Source: an uncultured Oscillospiraceae bacterium
GTDB lineage: Bacteria; Bacillota; Clostridia; Oscillospirales; Oscillospiraceae
DNA length: 64,000 nucleotides
Assembly: GCA_934572465.1 (NCBI GenBank)
Contig: CAKTLG010000002.1
Span: 43,119-107,118, forward strand
Direction: 5' to 3'
The notes under the pieces were generated by a model that was given only the letters and a program-made list of their open reading frames with translations, was not told the origin of the DNA and searched no databases. A program made the position numbers and the translations under genes. Positions 48,559 through 59,687 of the stretch are shown in pieces (positions within the stretch are counted from its first letter, which is position 1; each line of letters begins with the position of its first letter).

Positions 48559-49497
48559 TCACGGGAGGAAATAGAACGCCCCCGCGTCCTCCTGCGGCCA
48601 ACTGTCCTCCGTACCCTGCTGCGCGGCGGCTTCCTCGGCGAGACGGGCTTCCTCGGCCGCTTGCCGCGTCTCCTCCGCGCGGCCGATCTTCTCCGCGACG
48701 AGCGCGCTGTACCGCATTTGCAGCGCCGTTAAGTACTGCTCATACCGCGGCGCGAGATAGAAGTCGTCAAAATCCTGCGCGCACACCGTTTCAAGGTTGG
48801 CAAGCGTCGGCACATTCGCGGGCCGCGCGCCCCAGCAGGCTTCCACGGCGAAATCGCCGCGCTGATATCCCGCGTCGTACAGCTCGCGGCCGACGGTGAA
48901 GCTCACCTGATCGCCAGGCTTTACGGCATGGCTGTAGTAGCGTGTCCCGTTGTACGTGACGGCAAAATAGCCCTTGCTGACGGTGCCCTCCGCCGTGAGC
49001 GTGACCGTGAGCAGGTCATACGCCGGCGCGGCGTTTTCGGCGCGCGCCTGCGCCAGCAGTGCAAGATCGGTCTGCGCGGCGTCATACGGCGCGATGTCCA
49101 GCTTCATGTCCGCGGCGTAGGCCGCGAACGTCTGCTCCTTGGGGGGGACGACAAGCGCCAGCAGCTCTTCATCGCTGAGCTTGTCCAGACCGGCGAGCGT
49201 CTGCGTCTGCGATGTCGTGGTCTTCTCTGGGAATATTTCTGCGCTCCGCACCGCGCTCACATCGGAGCGGGCGGCGGCGCTGAACCACGCCCACGTGCTG
49301 CCGAGGAGCAGCAGCGAGCAGACGCACACGCCCAGCACGGACGGCAGCAGCAGCTGGAACAGGCTCGGCGCGCCCCTCCGCGCGAGGCGGCTGGGGTGGT
49401 ATGGAATCAGTCGGCGCGCGTTTCGCGCGGTAAAAATATTGGTTTCCGTAGGACAGCGCTCCTTTCGGTGGGGTTTGCGCGGGCGATCAAAAGGCAC
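48559..49497 (-). CDS. SipW-dependent-type secreted protein, last gene of the operon
   Basis: 312 aa as called from a GTG. Around residue 45-72 is a hydrophobic segment ending L-L-L-G-S-T-W-A-W-F-S, the SipW-type signal motif seen in TasA-like proteins. An extracellular part follows with a beta domain and a C-terminal Ala/Glu-rich coiled coil (about 265-300). The start is doubtful. The GTG lies in a hairpin without a ribosome-binding site, while a perfect AAAGGAG sits nine bases before an in-frame ACG (49447-49449) that would give a natural N-terminus; a mutated ATG is possible. Likely a fibre-associated or cap protein (inference). Confidence 0.75.
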   Translation of the reverse strand: MPFDRPRKPHRKERCPTETNIFTARNARRLIPYHPSRLARRGAPSLFQLLLPSVLGVCVCSLLLLGSTWAWFSAAARSDVSAVRSAEIFPEKTTTSQTQTLAGLDKLSDEELLALVVPPKEQTFAAYAADMKLDIAPYDAAQTDLALLAQARAENAAPAYDLLTVTLTAEGTVSKGYFAVTYNGTRYYSHAVKPGDQVSFTVGRELYDAGYQRGDFAVEACWGARPANVPTLANLETVCAQDFDDFYLAPRYEQYLTALQMRYSALVAEKIGRAEETRQAAEEARLAEEAAAQQGTEDSWPQEDAGAFYFLP

Positions 49498-49556: not shown

Positions 49557-51023
49557 TTACTTAACGGTAACAATCAACTGCTCAGAAGTGAGAATCTTGT
49601 GATAGTTCCCGCCCTCTTCGCCAGTCTGATAGGAAAACACATACTGATTTCCGGACATGACGAAGCTGCTTTCAACGATCACTCTAGTCGCCCATTTGTT
49701 GTAGTTCGGCATCGGAGCCGCGGTGAAACCATCAAACGAACAGCTATCAACCGTGATGTTGTAAGTAATGCCATCGATAATATGATCGAGGAAAATAGCG
49801 GACTTGGCTGTGTTGCCGGTATTCTTAAACTTGGAGTTTTTCACAGTCATATTGACAGGGGTGCTTCCCTCACTGTAAATCTTGATGCCATAACCGTCCG
49901 TGTTGAACTCACAGCCATCAAAGATAACATCCTTGCAGCCGTAGCCGACCTGAGAAACAGGCTCGGTAAAGGTGCAGCCGGAGAATACGAACTTGCTTGC
50001 GATGGTCTGCTTCAGCTCGCCTTTGAATGCACAGTCAATAAAGGTCACCACGCCGCCACGGGCGCAGATACCCTTAATTGCGCTGGAGTCAATGGTAATG
50101 CCCTGGAAAGTCAAGTTTGCGTTATCCTGGTAGCAGAGCGACCCCTCAGAGCCGGAGTTGACGTTCTGGAATTTGACCGTTGTGGTCTTGTCGCCGGTGA
50201 TCTTGATGTCAGAGGTCTGTCCCTGAGCCGGAGTGGCTACACCGCTGTCAAGGGCAACAGTGGTATTGGCAGGCAGCACGATCTGGGTGGGCGTGGTCTT
50301 GCCGGTATTAGCGTCAACAGTCTTCGCCGCAGTAATCGCGTCCTTCACAGCAGCGTTCACAGTATCCTCGTCGCCAGCGGAAATAGTAGTGGTGGCGACA
50401 TTCGGATACTCAGCAAACTTATCATACGTATTACCATTGCTGTCGCTCTCATAGCTGGCCTGCGTCGCAAGGACGGTGATGCCAAAGTCATCGATCTTCA
50501 GACCCTGATAGTCATTGCCCGCCGAAGACTGCATGTGACCTTTCACAGAGATGGTGGCAGTTTTGTCTGCGTGCAGTATTTCATCGGAGATGATCGTAAC
50601 GCCGTTGGCGAGACTGGCCTTGATGTCAGCGGGTTCGCCGTTGATCGTCCAGTCGATCACATCGAGCAGTGTCTTGCCATCGGCGGTTTTGTCGATGCTC
50701 CCCGCCTTTAAAACGACGCTGTACTTGAGTGCGAGATTACCGGCATTCTTGATCTGGAAGCTGTCCAGATCATAGGTGCAGTTCGGTTCCCAAAGGACGG
50801 TGGTGTCCGTGGTTTTCCAGTTCAGCGCCTGGGTATCGGAAAGCGGATTGCCAGACTCGTCCAGCAATTCTACCTTGAGCGTACCGGCCTCGATCTTGTT
50901 GACCTTGGTGCTTGCGGTGTCGGTGAACCATGCGAAGGTGGACCCGATCAGCATGGCAACGCAGAGAAACAGGGACATGACGCTGGAAAACAGTGCGTGC
51001 TTGGTCGTAATTTTGCTTTTCAT
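49557..51023 (-). CDS. TasA/CalY-like SipW-dependent protein fused to a beta-helix
   Basis: 488 aa. The N-terminus has the SipW-type signal (SLFLCVAMLIGSTFAWFTDT). The TasA/camelysin-like beta-sandwich (residues about 30-195) includes AGTLKVELLDESGN and FQIKNAGNLALKYSVVLKAG. The C-terminal about 250 residues are a right-handed beta-helix (FQGITIDSSAIKG, VIFDGCEFNTDGYGI). TasA-type proteins form biofilm fibres after SipW cleavage; the beta-helix fusion is unusual. It is preceded by a 131-base spacer with an 11-bp imperfect hairpin (51082-51121) and AAGGAG, so it may be produced at a different level from the upstream genes. Confidence 0.88.
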   Translation of the reverse strand: MKSKITTKHALFSSVMSLFLCVAMLIGSTFAWFTDTASTKVNKIEAGTLKVELLDESGNPLSDTQALNWKTTDTTVLWEPNCTYDLDSFQIKNAGNLALKYSVVLKAGSIDKTADGKTLLDVIDWTINGEPADIKASLANGVTIISDEILHADKTATISVKGHMQSSAGNDYQGLKIDDFGITVLATQASYESDSNGNTYDKFAEYPNVATTTISAGDEDTVNAAVKDAITAAKTVDANTGKTTPTQIVLPANTTVALDSGVATPAQGQTSDIKITGDKTTTVKFQNVNSGSEGSLCYQDNANLTFQGITIDSSAIKGICARGGVVTFIDCAFKGELKQTIASKFVFSGCTFTEPVSQVGYGCKDVIFDGCEFNTDGYGIKIYSEGSTPVNMTVKNSKFKNTGNTAKSAIFLDHIIDGITYNITVDSCSFDGFTAAPMPNYNKWATRVIVESSFVMSGNQYVFSYQTGEEGGNYHKILTSEQLIVTVK

Positions 51024-51154: not shown

Positions 51155-51862
51155 TTAGCTTACGGGCGCTTCGTCCTTCCCGTCCGCTTTCTCCGGCGGC
51201 TGGTCCTTGGCGAGCTGGGCCTTCAGCTCCAGCAGCTCCGCCATCATCCGCTGCGACTCCGCGCGCTCTGCCTCGATGCGCTCGCGCTCGCGCGTCAGCT
51301 CCGCCATCTGCTCGCTGCGGTACTGCTTGAAAACGCGCACGGTGTTGTACCCCTGCGTCCCGATCAGCAGCAAAAACGGCAGCAGGATGCAGCAGATGTA
51401 CCCGGGCGTCGTCTTGAGGAACGTGAAGAACGCGCCCACCTTCGGGATCGCGCGCTGGTACTTGCCGAGAATGTATGCGTCCGACGTCGGCACGGGGTCG
51501 TCCGCGTCCGTCGTCGTGCCGTAGGTCACGTAGCTCCGTGCGCCGGTGTCGTCCACGATGATCCGGCGGATCTTGTGTGTGAACGTCTCGCCGAAGCTGT
51601 TCGGGTCCTGCGACGTGAACGCGATGATATCGCCCTCCCGCAGCGTCGCGGGGTCGACGTCTTTCACGAGCACGAGGTCGCCGGACTGGAAATCCGTCGC
51701 GCTCATCGAGTCCGAGCGCACGATGTACGCCTTGTAGCCGAACAGCGCGCGGTCGTTGCGGTCGAACGTCCGCACGGCGATGATCGTGAAGATCATCATC
51801 GCAATAGCCGCGACCGCCAGCAGAACGGTCAGCACACGGCCGAGTATCTTCAATGCTTTCAT
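51155..51862 (-). CDS. sipW: Signal peptidase I, SipW (ER) type
   Basis: 235 aa. N-terminal TM (about 8-30). The catalytic Ser lies in VRSDSMSAT (about residue 50), followed by GDLVLVKDVD and LREGDIIAFTSQD. The general-base position reads F-T-H-K-I (His, not Lys), which marks the ER/SipW class. A second TM lies at about 155-175, followed by a charged coiled-coil tail of about 55 residues (RERERIEAERAESQRMMAEL). It should cleave the SipW-type signals of the two downstream gene products. RBS AAGGAG. Confidence 0.92.
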   Translation of the reverse strand: MKALKILGRVLTVLLAVAAIAMMIFTIIAVRTFDRNDRALFGYKAYIVRSDSMSATDFQSGDLVLVKDVDPATLREGDIIAFTSQDPNSFGETFTHKIRRIIVDDTGARSYVTYGTTTDADDPVPTSDAYILGKYQRAIPKVGAFFTFLKTTPGYICCILLPFLLLIGTQGYNTVRVFKQYRSEQMAELTRERERIEAERAESQRMMAELLELKAQLAKDQPPEKADGKDEAPVS

Positions 51863-51871
51863 GGTATCTCC

Positions 51872-52450
51872 TTATGGCAGGTCGAAGACCATGCCGTCGT
51901 TGTTGCGCACCTGCGTCATGTCGGCGGTCAGGCGGCAGGACAGGGTCTTGCCCTGTGCGTCGTTGCCCGCCCTGCCCGGAAATTCGAGCTTCAGCTTGAG
52001 CGCAAGGTGCTGCCCCGCGCCGAGCTGCTTCGGCGAAAACCGGCTGGCGTCCGTCAGCTCCGCGACCGTGCACGGCCCGCAGAGGACGGTCTGCCCGTCC
52101 TCGGTCGTGATGGTCGCCAGCAGCACATCGGCAAGCTCGCCCGCGGTGTCCGTGAAGCGGAGGCGGTAGTAGACGTCGAAGGTGCTGTCGTTTTTCACCG
52201 TGAAGCCGCCGATGAGCGTCATCCCCGGCTCGACGAGCGAGATGGGCTTGCCGTTTTTGTCGTAGAATTGCAGCGCCGCGCCGTTTTCAACGTTGCCGTC
52301 GATGCCGATCTCCATGTATTCCGTGGCAAAAATGTGGTTCCCCAGCGAGACCGTGACGTTGGCGGCGGCCATGTAGAACGAGGTCAGGAAGAAGGCGGAT
52401 ATCAGCAGCCCGAGCGTCAAAACTGCGCGCTGCATGCGTTTTTTCGTCAT
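51872..52450 (-). CDS. TasA-like secreted beta-sandwich protein
   Basis: 192 aa. An N-terminal membrane or signal segment (TLGLLISAFFLTSFYMAAAN) lacks the AWF/AYF SipW motif. The remainder is a beta-sandwich like the TasA/CalY fold (TLIGGFTVKNDSTFDVYYRL, followed by FTDTAGELADVLLATI). It could be an assembly partner such as TapA, or a second fibre subunit (inference). The start overlaps the upstream stop (ATGA) and has GGAGGCGG. Nine bases separate it from sipW. Confidence 0.82.
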   Translation of the reverse strand: MTKKRMQRAVLTLGLLISAFFLTSFYMAAANVTVSLGNHIFATEYMEIGIDGNVENGAALQFYDKNGKPISLVEPGMTLIGGFTVKNDSTFDVYYRLRFTDTAGELADVLLATITTEDGQTVLCGPCTVAELTDASRFSPKQLGAGQHLALKLKLEFPGRAGNDAQGKTLSCRLTADMTQVRNNDGMVFDLP

Positions 52451-53865
52451 CGTACCGCCTCCAGTTCCCATTGGAAATCCGTCGCAAAGGCGCGTCCGGC
52501 GAAGTCCTTCTTCGCGTCGGTCGGCAGCGTCACCGTGACGGTGTAGATCAGCTCGCGCGCGTCGGGGCTGCCCGCAAGCTGGACGGCGAAGTCGTCCCAG
52601 TCGGCGAGCGTGCCGCTGTAGCTCGCCGTCGTGCCGCCGCAGTAGACGGTCACGTCGCACCGGAGCTTGCGCGCAAGCGCCATGTCCGTTCCGGCGGCGG
52701 GCGTCTGCGTGAAGACGACCCGCGAGTTCTTCGTCGCCTTGACCTCGAGCCGGTAGGTGCGCGAGTAGCTGTCGCCTGGCAGGAAGCGCTGGACGCTGCC
52801 GTTTTCATCTGTGCCGAACGGCAGGCCCTCGACCTTGTTCCACCACGAAAGGCTCATCGTGTCCTCCGGCTTCGGGGGCTTCGGGGGGTAGTCCCCGCCG
52901 CCGGTGCCGCCGCCCGTGCCGTCCGGCCACGGGACGATGTAGGTCGTGTCGGGCGGGACCTCCACGCCGTTGACGAGCGTCGTTCCGGCGTCAGGCCCCG
53001 TGCGGATGACGGTACCCGGCCTTGCGTTGATGATCTCGGTATCCTCGCCCCAGACGTCAGCCCCGCCGTTCACGCCGGAGCCGTTGAAGTTGAACCTGCC
53101 GCCGCCCGCGCCGGGCAGGATGAGGAGCGGCGCGTCGGTCTCGCCGGTGAGCGTGATGTCGCCGGTGACGAAGGCGATGAAGCGCCCGTCCTTGATCCAG
53201 CCGAGGTCGTAGAGCCCGGGCATGTCGTAATACGCGCTGACGAAGCAGCGCAGCATTTCAACGAACTCCGCGCGGGTGCAGATGTCGGCGTCCCGCAGCT
53301 TTTCGCTCCAGCCGTGCACGATGTCCGCTTCGACCATCGCGGCGATATAGCCGCGCGCCCATGGCGCGGCCTTGTCCCCGTCGCGGAAGACCGACAGCGC
53401 GGAGAGGTCTTCGCGCGGCGTGAAGTGGTAGACGCGCGCGAGCAGCACCATCGCGGCATTGCGCACGATGCCGTCCTCCGGACCGTACAGGCCGTTCGGG
53501 TAGCCGAAGACGAGCCCCGCCCGCTTGCACGCGGCGATGGCCGGCGCATAGGGCGAGCTTGCGGGCACGTCGGGGAACGGGTCCTCCGTCACGGGCGTCT
53601 GCGCAAGGCCGAGGAAGCGGCAGATGACCACCGCCGCCGTCTGGCGCGTGATGGGGCTGTCCGGCAGAAACAGATCGCCGCCGATGCCCTCTACCACCCT
53701 GCGCTCCGACCAGAAGCGGATCGGCTCGCGGCACCAGTGGACGGCGGTGTCGAGATACACCCCGTCCGTCGCAGCGGCATAGACCGACAGCGCCGACACG
53801 GACAGCGCGGCGCAGAGCGCCAGCGCGAGGAGACGGCGTCCCCACGGCTTTTTCTTCAGATCCAT
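52447..53865 (-). CDS. SLH-domain protein with TasA-like C-terminus
   Basis: 472 aa. Signal peptide, then three N-terminal SLH domains (residues about 35-205; YAPAIAACKRAGLVFGYPNG). Then a segment of about 100 residues, a Gly/Pro/Lys linker (GGGTGGGDYPPKPPKPEDT), and a C-terminal beta domain of about 130 residues ending FATDFQWELEAVR. The layout suggests it roots a TasA-type fibre in the S-layer polymer (inference). The ATG at 53865 has GGAGGAAGGA; the long upstream extension of the frame is excluded. Confidence 0.85.
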   Translation of the reverse strand: MDLKKKPWGRRLLALALCAALSVSALSVYAAATDGVYLDTAVHWCREPIRFWSERRVVEGIGGDLFLPDSPITRQTAAVVICRFLGLAQTPVTEDPFPDVPASSPYAPAIAACKRAGLVFGYPNGLYGPEDGIVRNAAMVLLARVYHFTPREDLSALSVFRDGDKAAPWARGYIAAMVEADIVHGWSEKLRDADICTRAEFVEMLRCFVSAYYDMPGLYDLGWIKDGRFIAFVTGDITLTGETDAPLLILPGAGGGRFNFNGSGVNGGADVWGEDTEIINARPGTVIRTGPDAGTTLVNGVEVPPDTTYIVPWPDGTGGGTGGGDYPPKPPKPEDTMSLSWWNKVEGLPFGTDENGSVQRFLPGDSYSRTYRLEVKATKNSRVVFTQTPAAGTDMALARKLRCDVTVYCGGTTASYSGTLADWDDFAVQLAGSPDARELIYTVTVTLPTDAKKDFAGRAFATDFQWELEAVR

Positions 53866-53903
53866 AGTGTCCTTCCTCCGACTTCCCGGCAGCGTGCCGG
53901 AGA

Positions 53904-54383
53904 TCAATGCATGACCTTTTCGGTTTGCCCGTAATGCGCGCGTCTGCGGCAGTTCCCCGCGCAGACGGGGCAGCCGCTGTGCTGCACGCCGGCGCGCGTA
54001 TCGACGCGCGTGCGCCAGACGTGTCCCTGCGGACACTGCCACCACACGAGCTTACTGCTGCCCGCCGTGACCATCTCCGGCGTCAGCGCGCCGTTGAGCG
54101 TCGGGTGCCATTCGGCAGCCACGTCAGGCGCGAGCGTCGCAAGGTCGTTGTAGCCTGCGAGCACCTTGCGGCCCGCGCAGTAGGGGCAGCTCTGCTCGCG
54201 CGCCGTGCGGAACGCGATGCGCATGGGAAAGGAATGGCCTCTGTCGCAGCGCCACCACGCCATCGCGGAGCTGCCGGAGGAAACGTCGTCCGGCGTTTTG
54301 CCGCCGTTTTTCTCCGCGTCCCACTGGCGCAGCAGCTCATCGCGTCCGTTTTCCGCGCAGAACTCGCGCAGGCTCTTTCCCAT
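53904..54383 (-). CDS. Zinc-ribbon protein (DUF4379-type), first gene of the phase-variable operon
   Basis: 159 aa. Two zinc-ribbon repeats of the 'C-P-Y-C-A-G-x-x-V-L-x-G-Y-N-D-L' type: WWRCDRGHSF/CPYCAGRKVLAGYNDL and WWQCPQGHVW/CPVCAG, joined by AAEWHPTLNGALTPEMVTAG. Such proteins are often found with mobile or recombining DNA, and a DNA-binding role is plausible but unproven. The ATG at 54383 (GGGAAGTGAAAG before it) is only 20 bases from the recombination-like repeat at 54404-54420. There is no promoter between them in the present DNA orientation. Confidence 0.82.
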   Translation of the reverse strand: MGKSLREFCAENGRDELLRQWDAEKNGGKTPDDVSSGSSAMAWWRCDRGHSFPMRIAFRTAREQSCPYCAGRKVLAGYNDLATLAPDVAAEWHPTLNGALTPEMVTAGSSKLVWWQCPQGHVWRTRVDTRAGVQHSGCPVCAGNCRRRAHYGQTEKVMH

Positions 54384-54403
54384 GCTTTCACTTCCCATAT
54401 AGG

Positions 54404-54420
54404 ACGGAATCCATATTCCG
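54404..54420 (+). repeat. Inverton left repeat (site 1)
   Basis: ACGGAATCCATATTCCG, identical over 17 bp to the reverse complement of 54689-54705. Palindromic arms CGGAAT/ATTCCG flank an asymmetric CCAT centre, the layout of a tyrosine-recombinase crossover site. Confidence 0.82.
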
Positions 54421-54436
54421 CTCTACACGAAAAAGA

Positions 54437-54453
54437 CGGAATCCATAATTCCG
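54437..54453 (+). repeat. Variant recombination-like site (site 2)
   Basis: CGGAATCCATAATTCCG: same arms, but a five-base CCATA centre. It lies inside the invertible segment. Confidence 0.65.
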
Positions 54454-54610
54454 CGCCGCGTTCCGGCCGGCAGCATAAAAAAAGAAACGCGCATTCTCCA
54501 AAGTCCGACCAGAAAGACAGGTGCAGACCTTGGAAAATGCGCGCAGGAACACGGTCTCAAAGGCGAAAGCGGTTGAGACTGAACTTTTTGTGCTCAAAAA
54601 TGGTTTGCTA

Positions 54611-54639
54611 TTGATTTCCGCCGCGTTCTGTGTTATATT
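54611..54639 (+). promoter_or_regulatory. Promoter A, facing away from the operon (OFF)
   Basis: TTGATT (54611-54616), 17-base spacer, TATATT (54634-54639). It reads through site 3 into the 3' end of the recombinase gene on the antisense strand. Confidence 0.82.
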
Positions 54640-54688
54640 TTCAGCAGAAAATGGCGCAGAGCGCTATGTACGATGAATAAAATGCCGA

Positions 54689-54705
54689 CGGAATATGGAT
54701 TCCGT
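54689..54705 (-). repeat. Inverton right repeat (site 3)
   Basis: Exact inverted copy of 54404-54420. It lies 49 bases after the promoter A -10 and directly next to the recombinase stop. Confidence 0.82.
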
Positions 54706-54706
54706 T

Positions 54707-55552
54707 CTAACTGACCAGTCCCAGCCGTTCCAGCTGCCGCTGGTGCTCCGCGCCGCTTTCAATGAGATAGATGCGCGTCGTCTCGATGGAGCTGTGGCCG
54801 AGCATATCCGCGAGCTTCACGATATCGCGGTACACGCGATAGTACGCCGTTGCGAACAGGTGCCGCAGATTGTGCGGAAACACCTTCGACGGCGCGACGC
54901 CCGCCTTGCGGCAAAGGCGCTTCATCGCGCTCCATATCTGCCGCCGGTCCATACTCCTCCCGCCCGTGGTGAGAAAGATCTCGCCGTGGGCGATTTTTTG
55001 TTTCCTGGCGTATTTCAGTAGCTTGCGGCAGAGCTTCGCGGGCAGCAGGATCGTCCGGATCTTGCCCTTGAGCGCCACTTCGGCGCGCCCTTGGCTCGCG
55101 GCCTCGACGGTGAGGTACTTGACCTCGCCCACGCGGATGCCCGTCGCACAGATGCTCTCCATCAGCAGCGCAAGACGAGCATCGCCGGTGCTCTCCGCGG
55201 CGGCGAGCAGACGGTCATACTCCGTGCGCGTCAGCTCGCGCTCGGGCGCGCGGAAGATGCGGCGCTGGACCTTGAGGAACCTCGCACGGCAATCCTCCCA
55301 GCCGAGAAAACGGAACAGGCCGTTCAGCGCGGCAAGCGCGGTGTTGACGGTGGACGGGGCCTGCCGCCGCTCGATTAGACGTGCCTTCCATTCGGTCACA
55401 GCCTCCTTTGTGACGCTTCCATCCCCCAGCCATGCGGCAAAGGCGCGGATGCTGCGTAGGTATTTCTCCCGCGTCGCCGCGGCGCGCTCGTCCTCCTTCA
55501 GCTTGCGGTCGTAGCTTTCGAGCATTGATTCGGTGAGCTTTCGTTCGTTCAT
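54707..55552 (-). CDS. Tyrosine recombinase (predicted promoter invertase)
   Basis: 281 aa, a compact XerC/D-like integrase. N-terminal SAM-like core-binding domain (about 10-95). Catalytic residues are all present: Arg140 (CATGIRVGEV), Lys164 region (LKGKIR), His227 and Arg230 (HNLRHLFATA), His253 (LGHSSIETT), Tyr262 (RIYL). It stands alone, without excisionase or phage genes, between a repeat-bounded promoter segment and an SLH gene, as phase-variation recombinases do. The ATG has AGGAGG; a TATAAT-like -10 at 55597-55602 lies upstream with a poor -35. It is likely to act on the CGGAAT-type sites. Confidence 0.92.
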   Translation of the reverse strand: MNERKLTESMLESYDRKLKEDERAAATREKYLRSIRAFAAWLGDGSVTKEAVTEWKARLIERRQAPSTVNTALAALNGLFRFLGWEDCRARFLKVQRRIFRAPERELTRTEYDRLLAAAESTGDARLALLMESICATGIRVGEVKYLTVEAASQGRAEVALKGKIRTILLPAKLCRKLLKYARKQKIAHGEIFLTTGGRSMDRRQIWSAMKRLCRKAGVAPSKVFPHNLRHLFATAYYRVYRDIVKLADMLGHSSIETTRIYLIESGAEHQRQLERLGLVS

Positions 55553-55680
55553 GACAATACCTCCTGTTACGGATAGCTTTTTCTCGTTGGGAGGTCATTA
55601 TACCGTGCCTGTCCGCGAAATACGAAAAGCGCCCGCTCTATCTGCACCGCACACACCTGAAACGCTGTGATAACGAAAAA

Positions 55681-55707
55681 AGGCGAGCCGGATGGCTCGC
55701 CTTTTTT
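55681..55707 (-). terminator. Terminator of the SLH beta-helix gene
   Basis: Stem AGGCGAGCC with its complement around GGAT and T runs on either strand. It separates the surface gene from the recombinase. Confidence 0.85.
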
Positions 55708-55718
55708 GGAAACGCTGT

Positions 55719-58700
55719 TTACTTGCCCTGATAGGCGCGGTAGAGGAACGTCACGATCTGACCGCGCGTGCAGAAGTCGTCCGGAGCGAACTTGCCGCCG
55801 CCGACGCCCGTGGTCACGCCGTTTGCGACCGCCCATGCCACGGAACCGGCGCAGTACATCTCGCCCGTCACGTCGCTGAATGCGCCGTCATACGCGCCCT
55901 GCGCGCCGACGGCACGGCAGAGGAACGTCACAGCCTGGCCGCGCGTGCAGGTGTCGTTCGGGGAGAACGTCGTCGCGCTCGTGCCGGTGGTGATGCCGTT
56001 TTCAACCGCCCATGCAACGGCCTTCGCATAGTACTCGTTTGCGGGGACGTCGGTGAAGCTGCTCAGAGCCTTCGGCTCGGGAGAGCCCGCCGCACGCCAC
56101 AGGAACGTCACGATCTGGCCGCGCGTGCAAGGCTGGTTCGGACCGAACAGGCCGTTGCCGATGCCGTCGGTGATGCCCTTTTCGACCGCCCACGTCACGG
56201 CGCCCGCGAAGTAGTCGTTCGCGGAAACGTCGCTGAAGCTCACGGTGCGCTTGACGAAGGTCGCCTTGACGACCACGCTGCCCGCGGGCATGGTGAAGGT
56301 GAAGCTGCTGCCGCTGCCGCTGAGCGCAAGCTCGTCGCCCTTGCTGTCGGTGACCGTCAGGGAGCCGAGCTCATAGCCCGCGTCAGGCGTGACGTTGATG
56401 GTCACGGTCGTGCCCTTGGCGGCGTTCTTCGGGCTGACGGTCACGGTGCCGTTGGGAGTCGAGGGAACGGAAACATAGGAGCCGGACCAGTCGGTGCCGC
56501 CAGCGGAGGAGACAGGGATATCCTTGAGCTGGTCGTTGGCGACCTTCGTGCCGAAGCCCCAGCTGTTGTCGTAAATGGTGGTGATCACACCCTCGGCAAT
56601 GCCGGTCGCCTTGATGACCTCGCCATTGCTGTCGCCGCTATTAGTGGCCGTGTTCCCGACGATGGTGATTTTGGTTCCATTTGCAACCTCACCAAAGCGA
56701 ATGATGCGGTCGCCGATGTTCTTGAAGATGTTGTTGGTGATAATAACGCTGCCGTGGTCACATGCGCCCTTGAAGTCCTGAATGGCAATAGCGTTGTGAC
56801 CAGTCGTATCAAATTCGTTATTTGTCACAGTAATGTTCTTGATATGATTCGTGTAAACGCCCTGGAAGCAGTTGTAGAACTTGCAGTGATCGACGACGAG
56901 ATTGCGGACATTTCCATTGTCGTTCTCATTGTAATAGCGGATCGCCTGATTGCCGGACACCGTGCTGCCAATGTCGAACGTGCAGTTCCTGAAAGCGACG
57001 CCGTTGATGACGCTCTGCTCCAGAGAAGTGTTGATGTCGCTCTTTGCCGTGAAGGTCAGTCCTTCAAAGTTGATGTTGGCAAAATCGAACACAAGGTAAT
57101 AAGAATTTCCGTTCGCCACATCGCGATCCAGCACATAGTCGTAAGCGTTCTCGTACTTATGGCCGGACGAAGCAAAAATACCCGCAACGTTGACCGTCGC
57201 ACCGTCGGCCGCTTTGAGGGTGACATTGCTCATAGAGCGAATGTACAGAGGAACACCCGACCAAGTGGAGGTGTCGTTCTTGATGCGGCAGAAGTCCTCA
57301 TAGGAATACTCCTTCTGCTGGTCAAACTTGTTGCCCTCCAGAATAAAGTACTTCGTATTGCTGGTCTCATACTTCGTGGCGCGGCCCAGCTCAAGCTGGC
57401 CGTAGTTGCCGGTGGGAAGGATGATCGTCATACCGTCGATGCTGCCGTACTTACCGTCAAGAATGTCCTGAAGATTGTCCGTCGTGACATTGGTGATGGT
57501 CTTGTCCGTCGTATTGAAGGCCGGCGCGACCGGAACATTGCTGCCGGTGTAGGGAAGCGTGCTGGTGCCGTCCAGCGTGGTGGTCACCTTTGTGGCGGTC
57601 TCATCCTGCTTGTGGACGTCCATAGTGCCGGAGGTATTAGTAATGGTGTAGGAAACAATACCGAGATTATCGGCAGCCTTCACATTGCCGATCGTAATGT
57701 CGCTCGGGTCAGCGTGAGTGCCGGTAAATTCGACCTCATCGATCGTCAGCGTGATGCTGCATGCCTGCTGACCAGTCACGCGGAGCGCGCCCTTGTTACC
57801 ATCCTGACCGGTCACATTGTTGAACGTGCTGTTCTTTACCGCAACATCCATCGTGCCGTTTTCAGAGGGCTGCTTGACATTCACCACAACACCGGTGGTC
57901 ACACCGTCAAAGGTACAGCCGTCCACCAGAAGGGAACCGAGACAGTTGATGGAGATGGGCCAGCCGTGGGAAGCGCCACCATTTTTAAGGAAAGTACAGT
58001 TCTTGACAGTGATATCGACCTTGCCGTTTCCGGAACCGTAATTAAACAGGACCTCATGGGCATCTTTGCAGTTTTCCATGTTGACGGTCACGGTATAGTC
58101 GGACCTTCTCGTGCCCCACACGGAAGCGCCGCCGTTCAGATCGTAAATGTTGATAGAGATATTCTTCGTCAGGGTGTAGTAATTCTCAACATCCCACTCG
58201 GTAGCGCCGCTCAAAGTCGCACCGTTGCCGAAAATGGTCGTGGAAGTCACAAAGCTGGGGTGGGATGCCGTTCCGGCGGGGATCAACGTATTGGGGCGGC
58301 AGTAGATCACGGCAGTTTCAATGTCGGGAGAACTGATTACGCCTCTTTTCTGCTGGGCGTCATATAAAAGCTCGCCGATCGTTGCATAGGGATTGCCATT
58401 GTAGTACACTGGGGTGGCAGCGGGCCACGCAGTATCGCTGACCCAGGTCAGCGGATTCGCGGCGGAAACGGCCGTGAGGGCCTCCGCCAACGTGTTGTAC
58501 GTTGTGCCGTCCTTCGTCTCAGCGGCGTAGGGACGCTTAGAATCGGTCGTGTAGAGCGCGCTGCTGCCGGAGGCGATCGTCTGAAGCGCGTCCGCCTGAG
58601 CAGCGATACCGGCCGTCGCTTTTTCATTCAGCTGGCGCAGAACGGGGCCGCAGCCAGCAGCAGAGTTGCCGCTTAGGTCAAAGTTCGTACCGGTGTAGTC

Positions 58701-59459
58701 ACCGGTCTTGGCGACCTGAAGGATCGCGCGGGTGCCGACCTTTTCGCTGGGCGCAGTGCCAGCCACGTCAACATCTTTGAACGTGTTGCCGGTGAGGGTC
58801 ACAGCCGTGACATTCGTATTGGCCGTTTGGCTGACCATGATGCCGCCGCCGCAGTTTTCAATGGTCGTGCCGGTAACGGAGACATTCGCGCCGCGAATAT
58901 CCTTGATGGCATAGTTGTTGTAGACGTTCTTGAAACTGCAATCCTTGACCGTGCTGGTGCCGGTGGTATTGAACATGGTCAGCACGACCTTATCAAATTC
59001 GCAGTTTTCAAAGGTCACGTTGCCGGAGGTCATGAAGTAGAGCTGACCGGCAGGCGCATCATTGGCCGTGAAGCTGCCTTTCCAACCGCTGTTCTCGCAG
59101 ACCGTGAACGCGGCCGGTTCGTAAATGAACTTGACGTTCTTCACGGTGACGGCATCGCTCTGCCCCTCAAAAAGCTGGAACTGCGTCAGGCTGCTGTTCA
59201 CGCGCTTGGGCGTGTTGCCGGTGGCGATGACATTTTCCACCGTGCAGGTATGACCCGCGCGGGTGTCATAGCAGCCGCTCTCAGGGCTCCACTTGACTGT
59301 GACGCCCTGACCGTCGTAATTGTACCCCGCATCCACGACGTTCTTGATAAACGTGTCGAGGTCGATGGCCGCCGCATCCTCCGCCAGCGCCGCCGTTGGC
59401 AGCAGGCTCAGCGTCAGGCACAGCGCCAATAAGATGGATAGGAACTTGCTTTTCTTCAT
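55719..59459 (-). CDS. Large SLH beta-helix surface protein under promoter cassette B
   Basis: 1,246 aa. Signal peptide (about 26 residues, ending ALA). Residues about 40-330 and 400-1000 are Asn/Thr/Gly-rich beta-helix repeats (FENCEFDKVVLTMFNTTGT, NGVAFRNCTFDIGSTVSGN). Then an InlB-like B-repeat (about 1000-1065, VTPDAGYELGSLTVTDSKG), then three SLH domains (about 1065-1246). It is expressed from promoter B through a leader of about 190 bases containing site 4. The ATG at 59459 has AAGGAGGATC; the 99-codon upstream open frame is leader. Likely an exposed adhesin-type protein (inference). Confidence 0.92.
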   Translation of the reverse strand: MKKSKFLSILLALCLTLSLLPTAALAEDAAAIDLDTFIKNVVDAGYNYDGQGVTVKWSPESGCYDTRAGHTCTVENVIATGNTPKRVNSSLTQFQLFEGQSDAVTVKNVKFIYEPAAFTVCENSGWKGSFTANDAPAGQLYFMTSGNVTFENCEFDKVVLTMFNTTGTSTVKDCSFKNVYNNYAIKDIRGANVSVTGTTIENCGGGIMVSQTANTNVTAVTLTGNTFKDVDVAGTAPSEKVGTRAILQVAKTGDYTGTNFDLSGNSAAGCGPVLRQLNEKATAGIAAQADALQTIASGSSALYTTDSKRPYAAETKDGTTYNTLAEALTAVSAANPLTWVSDTAWPAATPVYYNGNPYATIGELLYDAQQKRGVISSPDIETAVIYCRPNTLIPAGTASHPSFVTSTTIFGNGATLSGATEWDVENYYTLTKNISINIYDLNGGASVWGTRRSDYTVTVNMENCKDAHEVLFNYGSGNGKVDITVKNCTFLKNGGASHGWPISINCLGSLLVDGCTFDGVTTGVVVNVKQPSENGTMDVAVKNSTFNNVTGQDGNKGALRVTGQQACSITLTIDEVEFTGTHADPSDITIGNVKAADNLGIVSYTITNTSGTMDVHKQDETATKVTTTLDGTSTLPYTGSNVPVAPAFNTTDKTITNVTTDNLQDILDGKYGSIDGMTIILPTGNYGQLELGRATKYETSNTKYFILEGNKFDQQKEYSYEDFCRIKNDTSTWSGVPLYIRSMSNVTLKAADGATVNVAGIFASSGHKYENAYDYVLDRDVANGNSYYLVFDFANINFEGLTFTAKSDINTSLEQSVINGVAFRNCTFDIGSTVSGNQAIRYYNENDNGNVRNLVVDHCKFYNCFQGVYTNHIKNITVTNNEFDTTGHNAIAIQDFKGACDHGSVIITNNIFKNIGDRIIRFGEVANGTKITIVGNTATNSGDSNGEVIKATGIAEGVITTIYDNSWGFGTKVANDQLKDIPVSSAGGTDWSGSYVSVPSTPNGTVTVSPKNAAKGTTVTINVTPDAGYELGSLTVTDSKGDELALSGSGSSFTFTMPAGSVVVKATFVKRTVSFSDVSANDYFAGAVTWAVEKGITDGIGNGLFGPNQPCTRGQIVTFLWRAAGSPEPKALSSFTDVPANEYYAKAVAWAVENGITTGTSATTFSPNDTCTRGQAVTFLCRAVGAQGAYDGAFSDVTGEMYCAGSVAWAVANGVTTGVGGGKFAPDDFCTRGQIVTFLYRAYQGK

Positions 59460-59593
59460 AATGATCCTCCTTATGTCTGCTTTCCGCAGCTTCCTGCGGT
59501 CGGACGTTTGGTCGGGGCTGTGCCGCTGTTTGCCGCGCCGCCCGCTGCGAAACGTCCGCAGGCTCTTTCCGCCGCCCGCTCCTCCGTACCGGA

Positions 59594-59609
59594 CGGAATC
59601 TGCATTCCG
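59594..59609 (+). repeat. Recombination-like site 4 in leader of the SLH gene
   Basis: CGGAATCTGCATTCCG: same arms as sites 1-3 but a CTGC centre, and 49 bases downstream of promoter B's -10, exactly as site 3 is for promoter A. Confidence 0.75.
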
Positions 59610-59658
59610 TTCGCTATAAATGAATCGAGCATAGCATTCCGAGCCATTTTCTGCCGAA

Positions 59659-59687
59659 AATATAACACAGGACGCGCAAATAATCAA
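59659..59687 (-). promoter_or_regulatory. Promoter B of the SLH beta-helix gene
   Basis: TTGATT (59682-59687), 17-base spacer, TATATT (59659-59664) on the minus strand. The surrounding about 110 bp aligns with promoter A region (54601-54705) in inverse orientation, including CTGTGTTATATTTTC-GCAGAAAATGGC. Confidence 0.85.

Follow-up and report, generated by a model that had tools for sequence, protein, structure and literature searches.

In E. coli, the invertible promoter fimS lies beside its own tyrosine recombinases, FimB and FimE, and controls a fibre operon, and the TasA/SipW fibre operons of Bacillus combine a SipW-type signal peptidase with a SipW-dependent substrate. Both arrangements have counterparts at one locus in the stretch of DNA analysed here (64,000 nucleotides from a Clostridia bacterium, hereafter the window). 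As at fimS, a promoter inversion is predicted next to the switch's own tyrosine recombinase and before a putative fibre operon; unlike fimS, the locus has a single recombinase that appears active by its residues, and where some relatives have a second, orientation-dependent gene of this type, it is a catalytically dead recombinase paralogue. As in Bacillus, the operon encodes a SipW-type signal peptidase and a SipW-dependent-type neighbour, but it also encodes an SLH anchoring protein and a DUF4379 protein, and its substrate is only possibly TasA-like.

The cwpV switch of C. difficile works through an invertible terminator; its promoter lies outside the segment, and its recombinase gene, recV, is unlinked (PMC2784873). 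It shares with the window inverted repeats, a predicted intrinsic terminator in the OFF state and a tyrosine recombinase, and it sits before a cell-wall protein gene as the window's switch sits before a surface operon; the window differs from the system described there in that the promoter (54611–54639) lies inside the segment and the recombinase adjoins a repeat. RecV is needed for some, not all, of seven C. difficile switches (PMC5903667). Recombinase-linked invertons of Clostridia are already published, in a survey that counts few invertons in all, a median of 3 per Firmicutes_A genome (PMC11892184). Its 33 hCom2 'group 139' invertons (32 in Clostridia) were linked to tyrosine-type invertase group 35, and one of them, from Clostridium sp. 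D5, covers 257 bp, has 26-bp repeats (from the printed coordinates) and changes orientation over passages. Like the window's cassette, group 139 belongs to Clostridia and has a nearby tyrosine recombinase, and in both cases the recombinase falls in the class that the inverton promoter could not regulate. The accessible text of that paper makes no mention, for group 139, of a crossover address, an internal terminator or a dead paralogue, and the two families, compared by description, are likely identical. The original prediction had singled out an inverton before a SipW/TasA-type operon as a notable phenomenon, and it proves less exceptional than suggested, given those published invertons and the fact that, of 300 family genomes, 50 contain a close relative of the recombinase (E <= 1e-90). 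A search of the literature other than subscription journals and preprints found no TasA/SipW inverton, no N4 rule in the cassette family and no dead paralogues; the crossover-address pattern, and a dead recombinase paralogue as the first switched gene in some relatives, are seemingly unreported.

It is highly probable, judging from the layout and from related loci, that the locus is a self-contained phase-variation switch whose recombinase would flip a promoter segment of about 300 bp, now OFF, and it offers a concrete candidate for ON/OFF control of a surface operon with SLH and SipW genes. Along the minus strand come, in order, a promoter with a single site (59687–59593), an SLH/beta-helix gene (59459–55719), a hairpin (55707–55676), the recombinase, the inverton and the operon (54398–48559). 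The elements of the switch are as follows.

54404–54421, plus strand: operon-side outer site ACGGAAT-CCAT-ATTCCGC, of which 54404–54420 is the 17-bp repeat (sequence, and site model from relatives)
54436–54453, plus strand: inner tandem site ACGGAAT-CCATA-ATTCCG, with a 5-nt centre (sequence; absent from the original prediction)
54488–54544, minus strand: predicted intrinsic terminator hairpin, then TTTCTTTTTTT on the minus strand (folding; absent from the original prediction)
54611–54639, plus strand: predicted invertible promoter, TTGATT (54611–54616), 17 nt, TATATT (54634–54639), with an extended -10 (TG)
54688–54705, minus strand: recombinase-side site ACGGAAT-CCAT-ATTCCGT, in minus-strand reading
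54707–55552, minus strand: tyrosine recombinase, 281 aa (ORF, domains and structural alignment)
55676–55707, no strand: symmetrical hairpin resembling a terminator, in the gap between the recombinase and the SLH gene upstream of it (inverted-repeat scan)

The left repeat reads ACGGAATCCATATTCCG, and its exact reverse complement stands at 54689–54705, so that the repeats span 302 bp with 268 bp in between; the match is exact over 17 bases and extends to 21 at one mismatch. The coordinates and identity originally given for these repeats are right, and no other perfect inverted repeat with arms at most 1 kb apart is as long as these 17 bases anywhere in the window, nor did 30 dinucleotide shuffles yield one (maximum 16). 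Both outer sites share the CCAT centre, also as predicted. The inner site, because its centre is 5 nt, has probably decayed or slipped out of register. Oscillibacter sp. MSJ-31 (locus L044) likewise has two sites at the operon end; it is the only close relative, in which the last 95 recombinase residues are 98% identical and a shared kilobase of DNA is 81% identical, and it suggests that the window comes from an Oscillibacter-like bacterium. Another locus (L040:8905-9365) carries three tandem sites on either side of the inverton, where L044 and the window carry two, on the operon side only.

The promoter in its present orientation is predicted to point toward the recombinase and away from the operon, as had been claimed, and a scan of 53800–55800 gave three promoter-like matches, all on the plus strand, which bears out the further claim that no other promoter precedes the operon: none of the matches in that interval is directed toward it. 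After inversion the 3' end of the -10 would sit at 54470, 87 nt from the ATG at 54383, in agreement with the distance of about 90 bases first proposed. That ATG lies 20 nt past the left repeat, as predicted, with an alternative at 54398, and the genes behind it are these.

53904–54398, minus strand: first operon gene, a DUF4379 treble-clef zinc-finger protein; ATG 54383 or 54398 (ORF, family match)
52447–53865, minus strand: SLH-domain secreted protein, 472 aa (ORF, family match)
51872–52450, minus strand: secreted pilin-like beta-sandwich protein, possibly TasA-like, with an ATG that overlaps the SLH stop (low-confidence model)
51155–51862, minus strand: SipW-type signal peptidase (TIGR02228, 59.3 bits, cut-off 51.85)
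49557–51023, minus strand: protein with a SipW-dependent-type signal peptide and a beta-helix (TIGR04088, 26.3 bits, cut-off 19)
48559–49497, minus strand: last putative operon gene, with a SipW-like signal LLLGSTWAWF recognised by eye and an unsure start codon (ORF)

The label of SLH/TasA/SipW operon given to these genes stands for SLH and for SipW; the first gene is a DUF4379 gene, and the 'TasA' is only pilin-like. The protein in question (51872–52450) has no family match and 17 homologues in a large protein set, and its model (pLDDT 64) has pilins and an archaeal filament as nearest solved structures, with TasA (5of2) at rank 4 and a TM score of 0.42. With a model of such low confidence, pilins for neighbours and TasA only fourth, a fibre operon is likely, not established. 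The peptidase scores 67.4 bits against the Bacillus SipW model NF046067, under its cut-off of 190; the 49557–51023 protein scores just under the cut-off for M73, and the 48559–49497 protein has no family match. The genes may form a single transcript by their arrangement, with a gap of 131 nt preceding 51023.

The recombinase stop is one base from the right repeat. Its product carries a Phage_integrase domain and an N-terminal SAM-like domain, aligns near full length to XerC-like and XerD structures, and has R140, K164, H227, R230, H253 and Y262, which we take to be the six catalytic residues of a tyrosine recombinase; the complete recombinase that was said to adjoin the right repeat is thus present, and its residues mark it as intact, with action on these repeats as the presumed role. 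Of the cassette recombinases, 51 can be aligned at all six positions, and every one of the 51 keeps the six residues. Among viral contigs, 14 stretches showed the pattern and none was a relative, and so there is no sign there of a phage carrier.

A scan of public genomes for relatives gave 49 loci and whole-genome searches added more; the 54 loci counted here, the window included, are what remains of 71 matches reaching residue 270 after removal of 8 duplicates, 7 with short downstream DNA and 2 below 40% identity. Loci of the 49-locus scan without a match reaching that residue (L034, L039, L041, L043, L045, L046, L048 and L049) are uncounted. The near-identical L068/L073 and L070/L071 are all kept in the 54, one of each being omitted from the promoter control and the terminator tests and L071 from the first-gene scan. 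An inverted pair scoring at least 13 was found within 900 nt downstream of the recombinase in 48 of the 54 loci, and with four more of lower score, judged by eye to fit the site model (L010, L021, L028 and L035), the common site ACnnAAT-N4-ATTnnGT is present downstream of the recombinase in 52. The other two (L024 and L037) fail the site model and were treated as pairless and excluded from later counts. Upstream of the recombinase the best pair score was at most 11 wherever there was enough sequence. The cassette is mostly recognisable by a rule (recombinase stop, ACnnAAT-N4-ATTnnGT site, about 270 bp, matching inverted site), which would allow phase-variable surface genes to be found in Clostridia genomes.

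Tyrosine recombinases require matching crossover sequences. The N4 centre was the same within the pair in 52 of 52 loci and of 31 kinds between loci, where shuffled pairings matched in 2.2 on average and 9 at most; this agreement is in part a product of the finder, which requires an exact 8-base seed. A seed-free test on the arms that ignored the centre gave matching inverted centres in 50 of the 54 top pairs, with 3 of the 50 self-complementary. A held-out set was drawn from a family-genome search that took the best 8 candidates per genome: of at least 78 places, 29 newly given a locus were used, and 3 proved too short, leaving 26. There the repeat score found a pair downstream in 20 of 26 loci against 1 of 24 upstream, with 6 of 26 failing, and the arm-only test in 17 of 26 against 1 of 24, with 9 of 26 failing. 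Within one genome the centres had been expected all to differ. They did so in two genomes (4 of 4 readable in G002, 4 of 4 in G003), but were of 3 kinds in 6 within G022 and of 1 kind in 2 within G013, and for this reason the idea of an address holds only partly. Two loci in G022 (L068 and L073) carry the identical inverton with the centre ACAC and agree at 92.6% over 1659 bp; one switch may have been duplicated, or the two may have exchanged sequence. Ten of the 49 scanned loci (L001, L004, L022, L034, L039, L041, L043, L045, L046 and L048) lie on contigs that end inside the recombinase or at most 75 nt after it, the kind of break that an assembly might suffer from paralogous copies or from mixed orientations.

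The locus is best read, as originally proposed, as a promoter inverton captured OFF: homologous segments are found in both orientations, the recombinase has the six catalytic residues, and the site centres match in the way that a crossover region would need. On this reading the recombinase (54707–55552) would bind the ACGGAAT/ATTCCGT arms of both inverted sites and flip the segment of about 300 bp, and the covariation of the centres suggests that the 4-nt CCAT would serve as a crossover address, with only matching sites recombining. In the OFF state the promoter, by its layout, would direct transcription away from the operon, antisense to the recombinase gene. Read-through from the recombinase would be stopped by the hairpin, given its position. 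In the ON state the promoter, about 87 nt upstream, would drive the DUF4379-SLH-pilin-like-SipW-SipW-dependent operon, with the terminator turned the other way. The state would then be set twice, by the direction of the promoter and by removal of the terminator, and the outcome may be a subpopulation with an alternative surface or fibre layer.

The hairpin itself gives reason to consider that the terminator is the main switch, as in cwpV, with transcription coming from or before the recombinase, the hairpin setting OFF and the internal promoter minor, a reading we regard as distinctly improbable. The 96-nt hairpin stretch has a folding energy of -41.8 kcal/mol, compared with -24.0 for shuffled sequence (z -5.8), and 1 of 200 shuffles did as well; the predicted score of hairpin plus T-run is 19 on the minus strand and 9 on the other, and no Rfam match was obtained in the window at gathering thresholds. 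This very stable hairpin carries its T-run on the strand along which transcription from the recombinase would run, and it now faces transcription coming out of that gene; on inversion the T-run swaps sides, and so OFF should be insulated from recombinase read-through and ON should not. Across the family, terminators against the promoter direction exceed mononucleotide shuffles (p 3e-8, n 44), and cwpV provides a precedent (PMC2784873). However, terminators along the promoter direction also exceed shuffles (p 2e-5), which means that the family's hairpins are not strictly one-way; those against the promoter are somewhat stronger (p 0.018, n 44), and with so modest a bias and many two-way hairpins we claim for the cassette family a terminator, not a one-way design. 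The accessible text on cwpV, moreover, describes a segment itself without a promoter (PMC2784873), whereas in most invertons of the family a promoter with an extended -10 stands in a constant position inside the segment. Of 50 segments, 76% had a promoter scoring at least 10.5, compared with 4% of mononucleotide shuffles, and the -10 lay 39–87 nt from the segment end it faces in 49 of 50. Called by the promoter at that place, 33 segments are OFF, 12 ON and 7 unclear (n=52), with some calls made on weak promoters such as that of L076; an unrestricted promoter scan gives 33 OFF, 9 ON and 10 unclear.

The original prediction had proposed looking for the flipped form in related genomes. Five homologous segment pairs align in opposite orientation, with the recombinase and downstream flanks collinear.

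L005/L020: 88% over 467 bp
L011/L026: 81%, within about 13 kb of collinear DNA
L067/L072: 81%, paralogues within one genome
L075/L076: 82%, paralogues within one genome
L007/L008: 69% over 174 bp only

For the window's own locus no flipped copy was seen, its only close relative, L044, being in the same orientation. This is what would be expected had the segment formerly been invertible and then become frozen OFF in the lineage, for example through the difference at position 18 or the extra tandem site, with the operon silent or on a distant promoter. The left site does end in ATTCCGC instead of ATTCCGT, a one-base difference at position 18, and a promoter with a site further along the window suggests that such switches can become fixed.

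59593–59610, minus strand: single site homologous to the inverton sites, with centre GCAG on the minus strand (sequence; absent from the original prediction)
59659–59687, minus strand: paralogous promoter TTGATT-17-TATATT, directed into the SLH/beta-helix gene (sequence)
55719–59459, minus strand: SLH protein; the listed ORF runs from 59756, and ATG 59459 lies downstream of the sibling promoter (ORF, family match)

This sibling is a copy of the promoter half of the segment, with 74% identity over 121 bp, standing in the ON orientation before the SLH/beta-helix gene. A 20-base block of it occurs at two places only in the window (at most 3 mismatches) and once, at the L044 switch, among 12 genus genomes (at most 1 mismatch). 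The site at 59593–59610 (centre CTGC/GCAG) has no partner found within the window, and it was rejected as an inversion partner of the window's other sites because its centre differs from CCAT. The simplest reading is that 59593–59687 would be an older cassette fixed ON, which would make two serial surface cassettes. Against a frozen switch at 54404–54705, however, stand the perfect 17-bp core and the intact recombinase; position 18 matches within only 75% of pairs among the relatives, and both site centres differ together between the window (CCAT) and L044 (CGGT at both ends), which fits continued matching. We give freezing a slighter chance than a terminator switch. That the repeats are operator or hairpin elements, or the ends of a small non-autonomous element, with the recombinase serving another purpose, is scarcely credible: each site is near-palindromic and folds as an RNA hairpin (stretch 54395–54465), but homologous segments are inverted between collinear flanks, centres covary within loci, and the exact palindrome CGGAATNNNNATTCCG occurs in the L044 genome only at its two inverton sites. 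The exact-palindrome and 20-base-block searches covered 12 of 18 genus genomes; 4 of 12 exact palindromes (G013:C13, G019:C30, G019:C74 and G022:C51) were set aside, having no second exact copy in their 3-kb loci.

What the promoter inverton switches varies between relatives. The 51 first genes scanned after the segment include tyrosine-recombinase-like genes, 7 of these with the SAM-like domain, and DUF4379 (4), SLH (2), GGDEF (1) and HU/IHF-like (1) genes, and many of the others look secreted by eye. The regulator-like ones are a diguanylate cyclase (L006:9108-10100) and the HU/IHF-like protein (L003:9263-9541), and at L033:9127-9684 a LoaP-like antiterminator scores just below the cut-off. 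A second SipW, at L019 (TIGR02228, 96.8 bits), provides at least one further case of a SipW gene placed behind such a switch; a SipW search in the genomes of six relatives, run without a positive control, gave no match. Judged by eye, the L044 switch is followed by two DUF4379 ORFs and then by a serine recombinase and an ORF resembling DnaX, and operon content there differs accordingly from that of the window. Contig 43 of MSJ-31 (L110) has DUF4379 and then a 1542-aa SLH-like protein, the contig ending inside DUF4379.

Among the recombinase-like first genes, six are full-length but lack the arginine of box I, the histidine of HxxR, the GH box and the tyrosine.

L008:2298-3161: dead recombinase paralogue as first gene
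L014:7916-8779: the same
L021:9135-10073: the same
L027:9089-9961: the same
L028:9103-9984: the same
L042:9109-9969: the same

A search with one dead paralogue gave 38 places in 20 of 300 family genomes, of which 4 are live-type, leaving 34 places in 17 genomes. Twelve of the 34 share a strand with a live recombinase and follow it at a distance of 324–482 nt, and most of the other dead-type places have no live copy nearby among the matches listed. By their position, the dead paralogues of the switches would be made only in the ON state. The window has no dead paralogue, and DUF4379 holds that place; in L028 and L042, DUF4379-like ORFs lie downstream of the dead copy.

A wider scheme can be drawn for gut Clostridia, in which the cassette would be a modular, self-regulating switch: the N4 address would separate one switch from another, antisense transcription in the OFF state would damp the recombinase, and a small DNA-binding accessory made first in the ON state (in some genomes a dead recombinase copy, in the window perhaps DUF4379) would bias or lock the switch. 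Taken whole, this is speculative and rather unlikely. Matched yet variable N4 centres and dead paralogues do raise the questions of how crosstalk is avoided among switches in one cell and how switching bias is set. Small zinc-type first genes (DUF4379 by Pfam, or CxCxCG-type by eye) are frequent, being seen, besides the window (53904–54398), at L010, L018, L038, L044, L057, L067, L068 and L072–L074.
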